From Tetrahymena thermophila SB210 (Eukaryota; Ciliophora; Oligohymenophorea; Hymenostomatida; Tetrahymenidae): DNA of 64,000 nt. The DNA lies in assembly GCF_000189635.1 (NCBI RefSeq), contig NW_002476326.1, positions 533,442-597,441 of the forward strand, given 5' to 3'. Position numbers and translations under genes: made by a program. Position 1 is the stretch's first letter. Each line of letters opens with the position of its first letter. Of the stretch, positions 32,147-64,000 are shown one piece after another. The notes under the pieces were generated by a model that was not told the origin of the DNA, did no database searches, and was given only the letters and a program-made list of their open reading frames with translations.

Positions 32147-35100
32147 ATGAGTAAAGACATTCAGGAGTTTACTGGAAAGGAGATTTAAGGATATACTGTA
32201 TCGAAGCCTATAGGTAAAACAATATATGATATACATTTATAATTCAAACAATGATTTAATATTACACTTACTGTCATTAATATTAAATAATTTGTTTACG
32301 GAATAAGCATTTAGTTAAAATTCATCATTATTTCATAGAATAAAAATAGATAATTAACTTAAATACTAGCGTTTTCTTTATAATAAAATAGGTTAAGGCA
32401 AATTTTCAACCGTTTATAAAGCTGAAACTGCAAATAAATAAGTTTTTGCATTGAAAAAGATAAAGGTAAACAAAATTTGGCATTATGATTTATGTGACTC
32501 TTTTATTAGCAAAAACAAATAACATATTTAGTTATTATTCTAAAATGAGATTAGAAAAATGTTTTTTTTTAAAAGCTGAAATAATTTTTTATTTTAAATT
32601 AGTTTTTTTAGATAATTTATGCATCATTCTGTTTGTATTTAATTTTAGTATATGAATTATTATAACTTTCAAAGATTAAAAAAAGTATTTAGTAAACGAT
32701 TTTAACAATTAAATTATTAGATATTTGACATGATGGATCCTAAATAGCGTGAGAAATGTTTAAAAGAAGTTGGATTGATGAAGCCACTAGATCACCCTAA
32801 TATAATTAAATATATAGATTCCTTTATACATAATAACGAATTGATTATTGTTACAGAATGGGCAGAAAAGGGCGATTTAAAGCGATTAATTAAAATGTAA
32901 TAGCAAGAAGAAACTCCTTTTGAGGAGTTAAAAATATGGGAATATATGTAATAGATTGCTTCTGCGTTAAATCATATGCACGAAAAAAGAATCATGCATA
33001 GGGATTTAAAGCCTGCCAATATATTTATAGCTCAAGATGACACTTTAAAAGTAGGAGATTTAGGTTTAGGTAGAGAATTTTCTTCAGGAACTATTGAAGT
33101 TTATTCTAAAGTAGGTACACCTTTGTATATGAGTCCAGAGGTATGTATTTATTTAATAATTATAATATATTTCATATAACATAGTGACAATGAATATGAA
33201 TAGGATTAGAAATAGTGCTAAAAAATAGCTCATTAAATAAAAATATATCAAATAAATTTATTTTTGAAGCGTTTTTAAATTTAAAAATGTTCATAAAAAA
33301 TAATACCAAATGATAAAATAATGCTACAGACCTATTTAGCTTTTAATGATACAAAAAATTTAGCTTGAATAAGATAAAAAATAATTAAACTTAAAATTGC
33401 TTATAATATTTTTAAAATAAATTATCTATTTCAAGAAAAATATTTAATTTTTGTAGTTGTCTTTTTTAATTTTTAGTAAAAGGTAATTAACTTATTTTTA
33501 ATTAAAAGCTTTTACATGGCGAGGGTTATGACATGAAAAGTGATGTTTGGAGTTTAGGCTGTATTGTTTATGAGTTGAGTGAATTTAAAAGTCCTTTCAG
33601 AAATGAAAATGATAAAATGAGTTTAATGGATTTATTTTAGAATATCACGAAAGGTAAAAAAATAATAATAAAAATGATGAAAGATTTAAACAATAAATAA
33701 AAAAAATAGGAGAATATAAGCAAATAAGTAAGAGATATAGTGAAGATTTATAATAAATTATAGATGATATGATAGTGGTAGACCCTACTAAAAGAATTGA
33801 TACAGAAGTTGTTTTGCAAAGATGCGAAAAAAAAATTAATTAGTTAAAGAAAAACCCAAAGATTGATTGTATTTTAGTAAATAAATGATTGAATATTTTT
33901 ATAATAATTAAATATTTATTTATTACTTTTAAATAATTTAACAGGTTAATGAGGATATATATGAAAAACTTACTCTTTTGGAGTATCATAATTTTTTTTG
34001 CAAACCTATGCACAGAGATCCTGTTTCAAAAGTGTTTTTTTCAATATCTGATTAAACTCCTGCTCAAAATAATAAGAAATTCTTCTATTTTGCAGAGCTA
34101 TGCTATTGGATAATGTCAATATAAAAAGTAACTTCTTATTTAAAAAAATTTACTTACTTTATTTTGTAATTAATTATGTTAATGCTCATTCATTTTTTTT
34201 TAGTATGATAAAAAAAATAAAATATAAGCAGCATTAAAATTAAAATCTCTTGGAAACTGGGAATCTGTTGATGAGTGTGCATAATAGTTATTATTCGATC
34301 TTAAAAAATGGGGGCTCAGACTTCCAGACTCTTTAAATGTCTAACACATTAGAAATGTAATTTTTTTAAAGGATTCAAACAGATTTTAACAATAATTATT
34401 ACATCAAAAAATATAAATAAACGAAAAAGTTTTGAAATATGATAAATGCTTATTTAAAAATAAACAATAAATTAATTCATTTTACAATTTATTTTTAAAA
34501 AAAACAGGGATATGGTGATACAGTCTGTTTCATATTAAACGATATATTAAATAGAGAATTAATTAGATTAAATTTTAAATTTGAAGATCCTAAGCACACT
34601 GATGTTTAGAATGGACAGCAAGAAACAGAAAATGGAGTTTTATAAGATCCTGATTTAAATGAGTATATGATTGAAGAGGAGGATATATAAGATGAAGATT
34701 CTATTGTCGGAGAAGAAGAATAAGGAGATTTATTAAATGGGTAATATAATAAACGGTAAAATGGAGAAGAGGCTTATGATTATAAAAAAATAATAGATGA
34801 AGATAGAGAAATGATTATCTCGAATGTTGATCCACTAGAGTGGTAAAAAGAATGTCTTAGAGTCACTACAGAGCTATAAAACTTTGATTTAAAAATTAAG
34901 AAAAATGAAATAACTGCATAGATTAACGAAAACGACTATATCAACAACTTGAATCGTCTTTAAAAATTTTAGAGAGTATTTATTAATTTTTACTTTTATA
35001 AAAGAATAATAAAATAAAATTGTATCAAAGGGAATGAATATGCAGGCATAAATTTTGTAAGAACCTTTTGTTAATAAGATAATCACAAACTGGTAAAACT

Positions 35101-35674
35101 AGCTAGATTAAATTGAAAAAGGAGAATAAAGGATTAACTAAGGAAATATTGATAGCATAAATGTGCTTAAAGAAAAAGTGCAAAGTAAAAAGAAATTTCT
35201 TTTGGATTTAGAGTAAAAGTCTGAGTAAGTAAAAAGCTAAATTTAGAATTTCGATAGCATGAATGAACAATATGAAAAAGTTAAAAAAGAAATAGTAGAG
35301 AGAGAGAAATTGATTACAGGAAATGATTAAACTAATAAAATAAAAGATGCAATATAAAAAATAAAAGTAAATTACAAATTTCAAATGTTTTATATTAATA
35401 AATTATTTGTTTTAAAAAGACCGAAATTAAATCGATGACAATTAAAATAGGTGTTTTACAAAGTAACCTCCTTTCAAAACAATTAAACATAGAATTAAAT
35501 AAATTTAAAAATGGATCTGATGATGAAGATGGTATAGATGATAATTATTTAAACGATTTATAGTAATCTAAAAACAACAACAAAAATAGTAACACAAATG
35601 GTGAAATAAATTAAGGATTTAGTGATGATCAAAATGAAGAAAATTTAATGGATATATCTGATGATAATTTTTGA
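32147..35674 (+). CDS. predicted NEK6/7-like kinase fused to IFT57
   Basis: Ten exons (32147-32213, 32392-32465, 32721-33140, 33509-33653, 33710-33876, 33945-34127, 34204-34356, 34508-34975, 35046-35366, 35420-35674) total 2253 nt with every phase matching, giving 750 aa. Residues 1-291 are a NEK6/7-type kinase: glycine loop GQGKFS at 23, ALKKIK lysine, an IFDMMDPK block typical of NEK6/7, HRDLKP (D142), GDLGLGR (D160), MSPE and SDVWSLGC. Residues 292-750 match IFT57 throughout: [18 protein letters not shown] at the start, a [10 protein letters not shown] block, an acidic middle, long coiled coils, then [13 protein letters not shown] near the end. IFT57 is an IFT-B subunit of cilia. The junction is a 68-nt AT-rich GT-AG intron (33877-33944). 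If it is not spliced, the kinase stops at TGA 33886-33888 and an IFT57 frame begins at an overlapping ATG 33885, an arrangement unusual for nuclear genes. Fusion is favoured. Confidence 0.82.
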
Positions 35675-37222
35675 AATTTTAATTTTTTTCCAAAATTAAA
35701 GTAAATAATAATAAATAAATAAATAATTTAATATGTATATATTTATATAAAAATAGTTTAATAATTTATTACCAATTAATTAAATAAGTAAATAAATTAA
35801 TTAAATAAATAATAAATAGTAATTAATATATTTCATATATAATTTAGTGTTTATAAATCATCTCAATAAATATTTAATTCCCTTAAAAATTTTTGTTTTG
35901 TACTTCATAATAAACTTACTTTCCTAATATATTTATTTATAAATAAATATTCTAAAATAAGAAAGGCATAAATAAATTAATAAATTATTGGAAATATTTA
36001 TTGTCTTTTATATTGTACAATTTTTTACTTTATAAAACAAAAATATTAATTCCAATAAATTTTTTAGGAGATAACACACCATTTTATTTTATTTTTTTCT
36101 TAATACTAAACTCAAACATAAATTAAATTATATTAGTTAAATATCTTAAAATAAAATTAAATGCATTCTACTTGAGTATCATAAAAAAGATTTTTTTTAA
36201 TTATGTAATTTTAAATTAAATTTTAGGAATCATTAAAATAAAAAAATTTTTTAAATCAAATTTTCTAAATGTTTTGAAAAATTAGGGATTTTCTTATATC
36301 AAGAGAAAATTGATAGTAAAATATAATGAAAATAAAATTATTAATTAGGGTTTGAAAGGTGAAAGAAAAGTAGAAAAGTAGATCTTACTTAATATAAAAC
36401 AGGTAAAACAAATTCATTTATTTATTTATTTAAAGCGATTTAGTTCTAAAATTTTAGAGCTTAAATCAATCATATTTTTATTTTCTTTGCTTTAAGAATA
36501 ATAAAATTGAATTAAGAGTTGATAGATTTATTCATATTTTATTAATTATTTTAAGAAGATTTTTTTAATTATGTAATTTTAAATTAAATTTTAGGAATCA
36601 TTAAAATAAAAAAATTTTTTAAATCAAATGTTCTAAATGTTTTAAATAATTAGGGATTTTCTTATATCAAGAGAAAATTGATAGTAAAATATAATGAAAA
36701 TAAAATTATTAATTAGGGTTTGAAAGGTGAAAGAAAAGTAGAAAAGTAGATCTTACTTAATATAAAACAGGTAAAACAAATTCATTTATTTATTTATTTA
36801 AAGCGATTTAGTTCTAAAATTTTAGAGCTAAAATCAATCATATTTTTATTTTCTTTGCTTTAAGAATAATAAAATTGAATTAAGAGTTGATAGATTTATT
36901 CATATTTTATTAATTATTTTAAGAGTTTATTTTTTAAATTAAGAAAATTACTTTAGAATTTAGTATTGATTTATTATTATATAATTTTTATAAAATTTAT
37001 GTGTTTATTTATATATTAGCTTTTTGATTATGTATGTAAGTATGTATCTATCTATGTATGATCTATTTTGTTCTTTATTTTAACTATAAAATATCATTAC
37101 TATTTTAGATAATTTATTAGTTTTTTAATTTATCTATTATGTTTTTTTGATGTTAAACTTAGTAAAGTTTTCCATTAAATAAACTTAACATAATATCTTT
37201 TAGTGATTTATATCAAATAAAA
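35675..37222. other. convergent intergenic region between two NEK genes
   Basis: A 1.55-kb spacer between the stops of the NEK-IFT57 (+) and NEK (-) genes. Apart from the 368-bp tandem duplication it is AT-rich and non-coding, with a GTATGTATCTATC-type microsatellite near 37033-37060. Confidence 0.65.
36187..36923. repeat. near-identical tandem duplication, unit 368 bp
   Basis: The segment starting AAGATTTTTTT near 36187 recurs 368 bp downstream. Anchors fix the offset: AATTATGTAATTTT at 36199 and 36567, and the shared end ATTAATTATTTTAAG at 36555 and 36923. Only a few differences were seen over the whole unit (for example GAGCTTAAATC versus GAGCTAAAATC, and a small T-run length change), so the duplication is recent or homogenised. 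Inside each unit are GC-richer phrases (TTAGGGTTTGAAAGGTGAAAG and GTAGATCTTACTT) and an ATTTATTT run. It is not open as a protein and has no terminal inverted repeats. Confidence 0.9.
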
Positions 37223-40200: not shown

Positions 40201-41418
40201 AATTTACTTTAAAATCGTATGGTTACTATTTAACAAGCTCAGGAGCAAGATACAGAGGAGTACCTACTCTAGTTCCTTACAATGCAGCTTGGCTTGATAC
40301 TATTTTAGAGACACCTAAGTCACCTAACTATTAAAAGAAGAAGTTTTAATAGCTTATTTAATTGTTTGAGTTTTGAATAAAGTGAAATTAAATTATAAAT
40401 CTAAATATAGATAAAATAATCTACAAAAAATTCCTTTTCATTTCTTTTGACAAAAATGAAAAATAAATAAATAAATCCTATTAAAATATAAAAATTAGCA
40501 ATGTATTATAATTGAAAACGATCAATTAGTTTAATTTAAATCAGTCAAATTGATAGAATTTTTACCTTGACTTTTCTATCTTTAGTGAGAAATATATTTA
40601 ATGTCTTGATATCTCTATGTATTATATTATTTTTATGCAAATAATCAACTGCTTTAATCAAATCATAAGCAAATTCCCATATTTCTGTTTCGGTAAACTA
40701 TTTTTTTCTCTCTCTACGATATCTAAGAAGCTATTTTTTTAAAATTATTTACATTTATTAATCAGTTTCAGTGAAAAATTTTTTAATTATTCATTTAAAT
40801 TAATTAGCAAGCGATAGGTAATCCAAAATACAATAAATTTAATTGATGATGCTGTAACTTTTTTTTAGAAATATTATTTTTTTGGTGATTTTCAGATCAA
40901 AGTATCATCCTAATAACAATGGATAATAAATATAATGGCTTGCATGATTTAAGAATTACTGAATTGATATTTAAAAATGTATTTGAACCATAGAATAATA
41001 GAAATAATATTTATGTATTAACTTATTAAAGATCACCTCCATCTGCGTATTCCATCACTATATAAAGACAATCATGCTCTACAAAAGAAGTGTAGTATCT
41101 GATAATATTTTCATGTCTGACTTTACGTAGAATTTGCGCCTCCTTAAGAGCTTCTTTTTAATGCTTATTACTCATGTGTTTGATATTTATTTTCTTCACT
41201 ACATACTCTTTTTTGTTGATATTAGATATTGCTCTATACACTACACCATACGAACCTCTACCTAATTCCTTCACTATAGTAAAATCAGAAACACATGATC
41301 CTATTTATCGCTTATTGTCTTCGTGCTCCTATTTTTCTGAATTGATATCTACACCATTCATCAAACGTGCTTTTTCTTTATCAGATTCAGATCTTTACTA
41401 TCGATTGTTTGTATTCAT
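37223..41418 (-). CDS. NIMA-related (NEK) Ser/Thr kinase with long Q/N-rich tail
   Basis: Seven exons on the minus strand (41418-41023, 40730-40566, 40327-40208, 40152-40110, 40056-37729, 37665-37585, 37527-37223), all in phase, give 1145 aa. The kinase domain begins near residue 45 (FTIVKELGRGSYGVVYRA). It has VVKKI, an EALKEAQILRKVRHENIIRYY block, MEYADGGDL, HRDIKTLN, GDLGVSK and GTPLYLAPE, followed by VDIWAIGIVLYHI; this is the NEK pattern, with Thr for Pro in the HRDxKxxN motif. The tail (about residues 290-1145) is dominated by Asn, Gln, Ser and Lys and includes a run of twelve Gln, ten of them TAG codons. The last short exons carry a basic KKYTIKDLV motif. Ciliate NEKs commonly control cilia length and basal bodies; the role here is inferred. 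It converges on the NEK-IFT57 gene. Confidence 0.88.
38585..38614. repeat. (CTA)10 microsatellite encoding poly-Gln as TAG codons
   Basis: Ten CTA units on the plus strand are ten consecutive TAG codons in the minus-strand NEK frame, flanked by a CAA and a CAG codon, making twelve Gln. Under the standard code this would be ten stops in a row. Confidence 0.9.
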
Positions 41419-63972: not shown

Positions 63973-64000
63973 AGGGGGGTTGGGGTTGGGGTTGGGGTTG
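63973..64000. repeat. macronuclear telomere, (TTGGGG)n
   Basis: After unique AT-rich DNA the sequence switches to a G6 run (63974-63979) and then TTGGGG repeats to the window edge. This is the Tetrahymena telomere unit in its 5'-to-3' end orientation, so the window's right edge is a chromosome end. The first run has six G instead of four, marking the junction between unique DNA and added telomere. Confidence 0.97.

Follow-up and report, generated by a model that had tools for sequence, protein, structure and literature searches.

Introduction

Animal NEK6 and NEK7 consist of little more than a kinase domain, and the NEK8/9 subfamily provides an example of NEKs that carry C-terminal interaction domains. 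Within the intraflagellar transport (IFT) complex IFT-B, IFT57 pairs with IFT38. By what route NEK kinases arrive at cilia, and how they regulate them, is an open question in many organisms. Across the family the kinase is almost always N-terminal, with predicted C-terminal domains that serve protein-protein interaction (PMC2031824, in excerpt), and NRK/NEK kinases are counted among the negative regulators of cilium length (PMC6682161). The MAK/ICK and LF4/MOK kinases regulate IFT: a review table puts IFT57 under MAK/ICK phosphorylation (PMC12376688, table excerpt) and LF4A is described in Tetrahymena (PMC6682161). These are separate proteins of another kinase group and do not form part of an IFT subunit.

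Here we analyse a gene of Tetrahymena thermophila SB210 located in a 64,000-nucleotide stretch of contig NW_002476326.1 (the window), for which a first-pass annotation had proposed a NEK6/7-like kinase fused to IFT57. The genome (G000) matches T. thermophila telomerase RNA at 100% across 159 of 159 bases, and one of its cytochrome c1 exons has 208 of 208 residues in common with the T. thermophila PDB chain 7tgh_3D. In our favoured reading, which we hold to be probable though by no means assured, the gene encodes an 88 kDa protein made up of a NEK6/7-type kinase and a second, diverged IFT57, such that duplication and fusion of IFT57 would have tethered a NEK to IFT-B. What we describe below of its reading frame and domains, its catalytic residues, its paralogue and the introns shared with it are features of the genomic sequence, from which the spliced transcript is predicted. 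Like the NEKs with C-terminal interaction domains, the fusion has an N-terminal kinase and a C-terminal protein-protein module (PMC2031824, same excerpt), with the difference that the module is an IFT-B subunit; it would share with MAK/ICK and LF4/MOK a link to IFT regulation. No kinase-IFT57 fusion was found in the titles, abstract openings and passages of the literature searched, a set outside which the main Tetrahymena NRK study (Wloga 2006) falls, and both domains may already be present in a model of this gene in the Tetrahymena database. For Euplotes, IFT57 is named without a kinase in the relevant passage of PMC12106347.

Results and discussion

Structure of the gene

The gene model runs from an in-frame ATG at 32147 to a TGA at 35672-35674 in the ciliate code (table 6, in which TAA and TAG are read as Q), with 10 exons separated by GT..AG introns and no internal stop across 32147-35674 (Table 1), giving a predicted product of 755 aa and 88.4 kDa. 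Pfam places Pkinase at residues 16-272 (1e-66) and IFT57 (PF10498) at residues 293-688 (3.1e-84); the latter match covers the entire profile (1-360 of 360) at 283.5 bits against a curated cut-off of 40, which assigns this part of the protein to the IFT57 family. The ten in-frame exons spanning a complete NEK kinase and a full-length IFT57 that were proposed in the first-pass annotation are thus borne out, by the frame and by Pfam for both domains. The IFT57 similarity, said there to start exactly at the exon border at 33945, does begin practically at that border, if not exactly, since exon 6 starts with residue 292 and the profile match with residue 293. The join between 33876 and 33945 is phase 0. 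The N-terminus of the IFT57 domain is termed 'CH-like'.

Table 1. Exons and junction intron of the predicted fusion gene (positions in the window).
Feature	Position	Strand	Content	Basis
Exon 1	32147..32213	+	Kinase N-terminus, start of glycine-rich loop	Table 6 translation, Pfam
Exon 2	32392..32465	+	Glycine-rich loop, catalytic lysine K44 (NEK7 K63 position)	
Exon 3	32721..33140	+	Residues 48-187: E63, Y78, HRD D142, DLG D160, S176	
Exon 4	33509..33653	+	Kinase C-lobe	
Exon 5	33710..33876	+	End of kinase domain (Pfam to residue 272), then ~20-residue linker	
Junction intron 5	33877..33944	+	68 nt, phase 0, GTAAAT..TAACAG, 91% AT	
Exon 6	33945..34127	+	Start of IFT57 domain, CH-like N-terminus	
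Exon 7	34204..34356	+	IFT57; following intron in same column and phase as in kinase-free IFT57 gene	
Exon 8	34508..34975	+	IFT57, acidic middle part, VDPxxW stretch	
Exon 9	35031..35366	+	IFT57 coiled-coil part; following intron in same column and phase as in kinase-free IFT57 gene	
Exon 10	35420..35674	+	Last part of the conserved IFT57 block, acidic tail; TGA stop at 35672-35674	

A NEK6/7-type kinase half

The best PDB match of the kinase half is NEK7 (4e-79), presumably the human protein, with 48% identity over 254 columns; exon 3 taken singly is 55% identical to positions 36-176 of the 259-residue NEK7 query piece. Among the 138 candidates scored, out of 728 from a first look, the next best place for the kinase within its own genome reaches 182 bits at 38% identity. 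In a tree of 32 rows, comprising this kinase, 28 further T. thermophila kinase loci and NEK1, NEK2 and NEK7 as the only named NEKs, it pairs with NEK7 with support of 99/99 once the long-branch row L040 is dropped, a grouping that does not tell NEK6 from NEK7 because NEK6 is absent from the tree. With L040 kept (33 rows), the fork that holds the kinase and NEK7 is without resolution and NEK7 is still the nearest row. The 29 T. thermophila loci, L040 included and some of them partial domains, are those with locus ids among the 138 listed matches, so the more distant kinases of the genome lie outside it. A NEK2-type kinase was considered and discarded, as grouping with NEK2 is rejected by the AU test (p 0.001). 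Together with the PDB match and the tree lacking L040, this test supports the NEK6/7-like identity given in the first-pass annotation. In the reverse search with the NEK7 piece unsplit kinases elsewhere in the genome score best and the fusion locus comes only ninth, at 164 bits for a single exon compared with 208 for an unsplit kinase on contig C199, because exons were scored apart and not joined.

Residues K44, E63, D142, D160 and S176 of the kinase occupy the positions of NEK7 K63, E82, D161, D179 and S195, and Y78 that of NEK7 Y97. By the roles of these positions in NEK7, the residues of an active kinase (Lys, Glu, HRD Asp and DLG Asp) and the activation-loop serine are all present, and the alignment to NEK7 confirms D142 and D160 as the catalytic aspartates picked out previously. 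A NEK6/7-type kinase that retains its catalytic residues, and is predicted to be active, is supported. The likeness to NEK6/NEK7 extends over overall identity, clade, catalytic residues and the position of the activation-loop serine; the difference is that in the fusion a full IFT57 follows after the short linker. A separate kinase-like stretch lies ~5 kb downstream on the minus strand (41023-41289; G000:C206:574464-574730), where positions 2-91 of the NEK7 piece are matched at 39% identity (1.3e-13).

One gene or two

The junction between the two halves can be read in more than one way. If intron 5 is retained, a TGA at 33886-33888 closes a 294-residue kinase and an IFT57 frame could open at an ATG at 33885, so that the ATGA overlap at 33885-33888 remarked upon in the first-pass annotation is indeed present. 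Both frames needed for two head-to-tail genes therefore exist, one for a NEK6/7-like kinase of 294 aa (34 kDa) and the other, from ATG 33885, for a second IFT57 of 484 aa (57 kDa), and T. thermophila gene predictions are known to include wrongly fused neighbours (PMC3274533, in part). However, the 20-residue N-terminus that this second IFT57 would possess scores as intron. On a codon model trained on the exons of both IFT57 genes against their introns, with the junction intron excluded, 33885-33944 (60 bases) gives -14.0 bits when taken as IFT57 codons. None of 1121 overlapping in-frame exon windows is as low (lowest, -4.9 bits), while 672 of 735 intron windows (overlapping and free of TGA) reach or exceed that value, with the proviso that these control windows look better than they deserve because they were also the training sets.

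The splice sites point the same way. Intron 5 ranks sixth of the 19 introns from the two IFT57 genes in splice score (leave-one-out). Seven of the 15 GT..AG pairs between 33800 and 33960 leave the frame open, 33877-33953 (which uses the same donor) among them, so that an open join says little by itself. Only 33877-33944, among those seven, combines a GTAA donor with an acceptor that, by eye, resembles the acceptors of the remaining 18 introns. This pair would excise just the noncoding piece with the frame intact, through a GTAA donor and an acceptor of the usual kind, which in our reading of the sequence is a real point in favour of fusion. Space is also a consideration: in the figures excerpted from PMC3274533, the 5' UTRs of 6,633 T. 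thermophila genes total 0.75 Mb and the 3' UTRs 1.34 Mb, which by division gives means of ~113 and ~202 bases, respectively. Two genes would have no room at all for a 3' and a 5' UTR between them, because the stop of the kinase alone overlaps the first possible IFT57 start. On the intron-like score of the extra N-terminus and the missing UTR space we reject two overlapping genes, an arrangement we consider very unlikely. The seam is intron-like and preserves the frame, as is expected of a true gene fusion, and the single fused gene proposed in the first-pass annotation appears much the better reading.

A single locus could nevertheless give two products, the fusion from spliced transcripts and a free kinase ending at 33888 from those that retain intron 5, with the cell setting the share of tethered and free NEK. 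With the intron retained, the complete kinase would gain just V-N-K ahead of its stop, and the intron is short at 68 nt, retained introns in T. thermophila averaging 80 bp (PMC3274533, in part). Any intron with an early stop would give the same picture, however, and the splice score of intron 5 is good; we think regulated retention decidedly unlikely. The junction intron contains AATAAA at 33880-33885, which may direct polyadenylation of a transcript for the free kinase or may be a chance occurrence in AT-rich sequence. Positions 33889-33941 of this intron also have a 53-base AT-rich match at G000:C214:723288-723343 (84%, 6.4e-7), which may be due to chance or to a small repeat.

A chimeric contig or a dying pseudogene is scarcely credible as the source of the fused frame. 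Possible in principle, such an artefact receives no support from what we saw: the seam lies inside one contig, a 301-base query across it is matched at full length only by itself among the 445 contigs (101 Mb) of the genome, all ten exons are open and both domains are complete.

A second, kinase-free IFT57

A genome-wide search for the IFT57 family revealed two loci, the fusion and G000:C387:23711-25541, to which all nine matches up to E 10 belong. A hand-built model of the gene on C387, starting from L016, comprises 11 exons; its product, 404 aa (46.7 kDa) without a kinase, scores 381.8 bits on the IFT57 profile. This copy is 35% identical to what we take to be Chlamydomonas IFT57 (PDB 8bd7_M), compared with 24% for the fused copy, and identity between the T. 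thermophila copies is 27%. Identity is lowest in the coiled-coil part of the fused copy, at 21% to the C387 copy and 14% to Chlamydomonas, and reaches 48% (16/33) between the two T. thermophila copies in the C-terminal conserved block. The C387 gene fits the 47 kDa T. thermophila IFT57, TTHERM_01298520 (PMC8175508, in part), a match made by size and not by entry sequence. The first-pass annotation was thus right that an IFT57 carrying a kinase exists by sequence, but this is not the organism's only IFT57, the kinase-free copy having been missed. Because the C387 protein has no kinase, a tag placed on its gene would be blind to one, and a size test belongs at the fusion locus.

One locus above cut-off was found in the genome for IFT38 and likewise one for IFT20, and a duplicated partner was accordingly dropped as a candidate. 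With a single IFT38 locus, both IFT57 copies would use the same partner.

The excerpted cilia mass-spectrometry table of PMC8175508 lists only the 47 kDa IFT57 and no kinase form. Its Table 3 gives six IFT57 peptides for wild-type cilia, compared with 24-285 for the other ten IFT-B proteins listed. A low peptide count would fit a second IFT57 that shares the work, a hint on which we do not lean. The same row contradicts itself, with counts up to 23 in CFAP69-KO and yet a quantity given as 'down', and with a sum of 2 and a mean of 1.0 in the other mutant.

Origin of the fusion

Two of the four internal introns of the fused IFT57 match the C387 gene in both column and phase (columns 130 and 405; phase 0). 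Random placement gives at least two coincident introns in ~0.0002 of trials, or 0.0003 if all introns are set to phase 0. These two common positions indicate that the IFT57 half came by DNA duplication and not by reverse transcription, and we reject a retrocopy origin because of them. Judged from sequence, the fused IFT57 is a diverged duplicate of IFT57. It resembles TTHERM_01298520 and the Chlamydomonas protein in its full-length domain, and the T. thermophila gene in the two intron positions; it differs in its low identity to both, in the kinase in front and in the absence of the first exon, MSETQFQ.

That exon holds clues to how the fusion may have arisen. The C387 gene begins with these seven codons, followed by a phase-0 intron and an exon that opens GTT GAT, and the fusion gene has a phase-0 intron just 5' of the IFT57 domain, followed by an exon that opens GTT AAT. 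The seam intron and the first C387 intron fall in different alignment columns, with 2 versus 11 residues before the first well-aligned residue. A duplicated, intron-bearing IFT57 gene could have ended up 3' of a NEK6/7 gene and shed its very short first exon, plus a few codons, whereupon splicing would have joined the last kinase exon to what had been the phase-0 acceptor of IFT57 exon 2. Loss of the first exon with splicing to the old acceptor seems the simplest and most likely path. No relatives of the IFT57 part were found in viral_contigs or genome_contigs.

A putative kinase on IFT-B

The fusion would follow the working plan of other NEKs, in which the catalytic domain is N-terminal and a C-terminal module sets location; here that module is an IFT-B subunit. 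By pairing with IFT38, the IFT57 part would bring the predicted active NEK6/7 kinase to IFT-B, either at the base of the cilium or on trains, and there the tethered enzyme could phosphorylate its neighbours and so adjust train loading, turnaround or cilium shortening. Since the fused IFT57 is strongly diverged, IFT38 binding may be lost, and the divergence of the coiled-coil noted above is the main warning that its sequence gives against a kinase located on IFT-B. An expressed fusion whose IFT57 part acts outside IFT-B, as a scaffold or dimerising tail for a kinase placed elsewhere, e.g. at basal bodies or in the nucleus, would agree with this low identity, and Paramecium IFT57 copies are reported to be subfunctionalised, with an IFT57 that has a macronuclear role (PMC11149776, PMC6006156, both in part). 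Against this, the fused copy still matches the full profile and keeps nearly half of its C-terminal block identical to the kinase-free copy; a location outside IFT-B strikes us as unlikely, if the strongest of the alternatives to a kinase tethered to IFT-B.

More tentatively, and with rather less confidence than in the tethering itself, we suggest T. thermophila may possess IFT-B particles of two types, the first containing plain IFT57 and the second an IFT57 with a NEK6/7 kinase of its own. The two copies would compete for the one IFT38, and a swap of this single subunit would produce a self-phosphorylating train, by which trains or cilia would be marked to undergo turnaround, shortening or division-linked remodelling. 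If true, a natural covalent fusion of NEK6/7 to IFT-B would name this complex, and its IFT38/IFT57 corner, as a site of NEK work. It would also provide a system with easy genetics for testing NEK action at IFT-B, the kinase-free paralogue in the same cell serving as a built-in control.

Surroundings of the gene

Downstream of the fusion gene, in an AT-rich stretch, two tandem copies of a 368-base unit lie at 36187-36937 (97% matches). At the very end of the window (63976-64000) there is a GGGGTT repeat, which we take to be the Tetrahymena telomere sequence, so the window apparently reaches a chromosome end.
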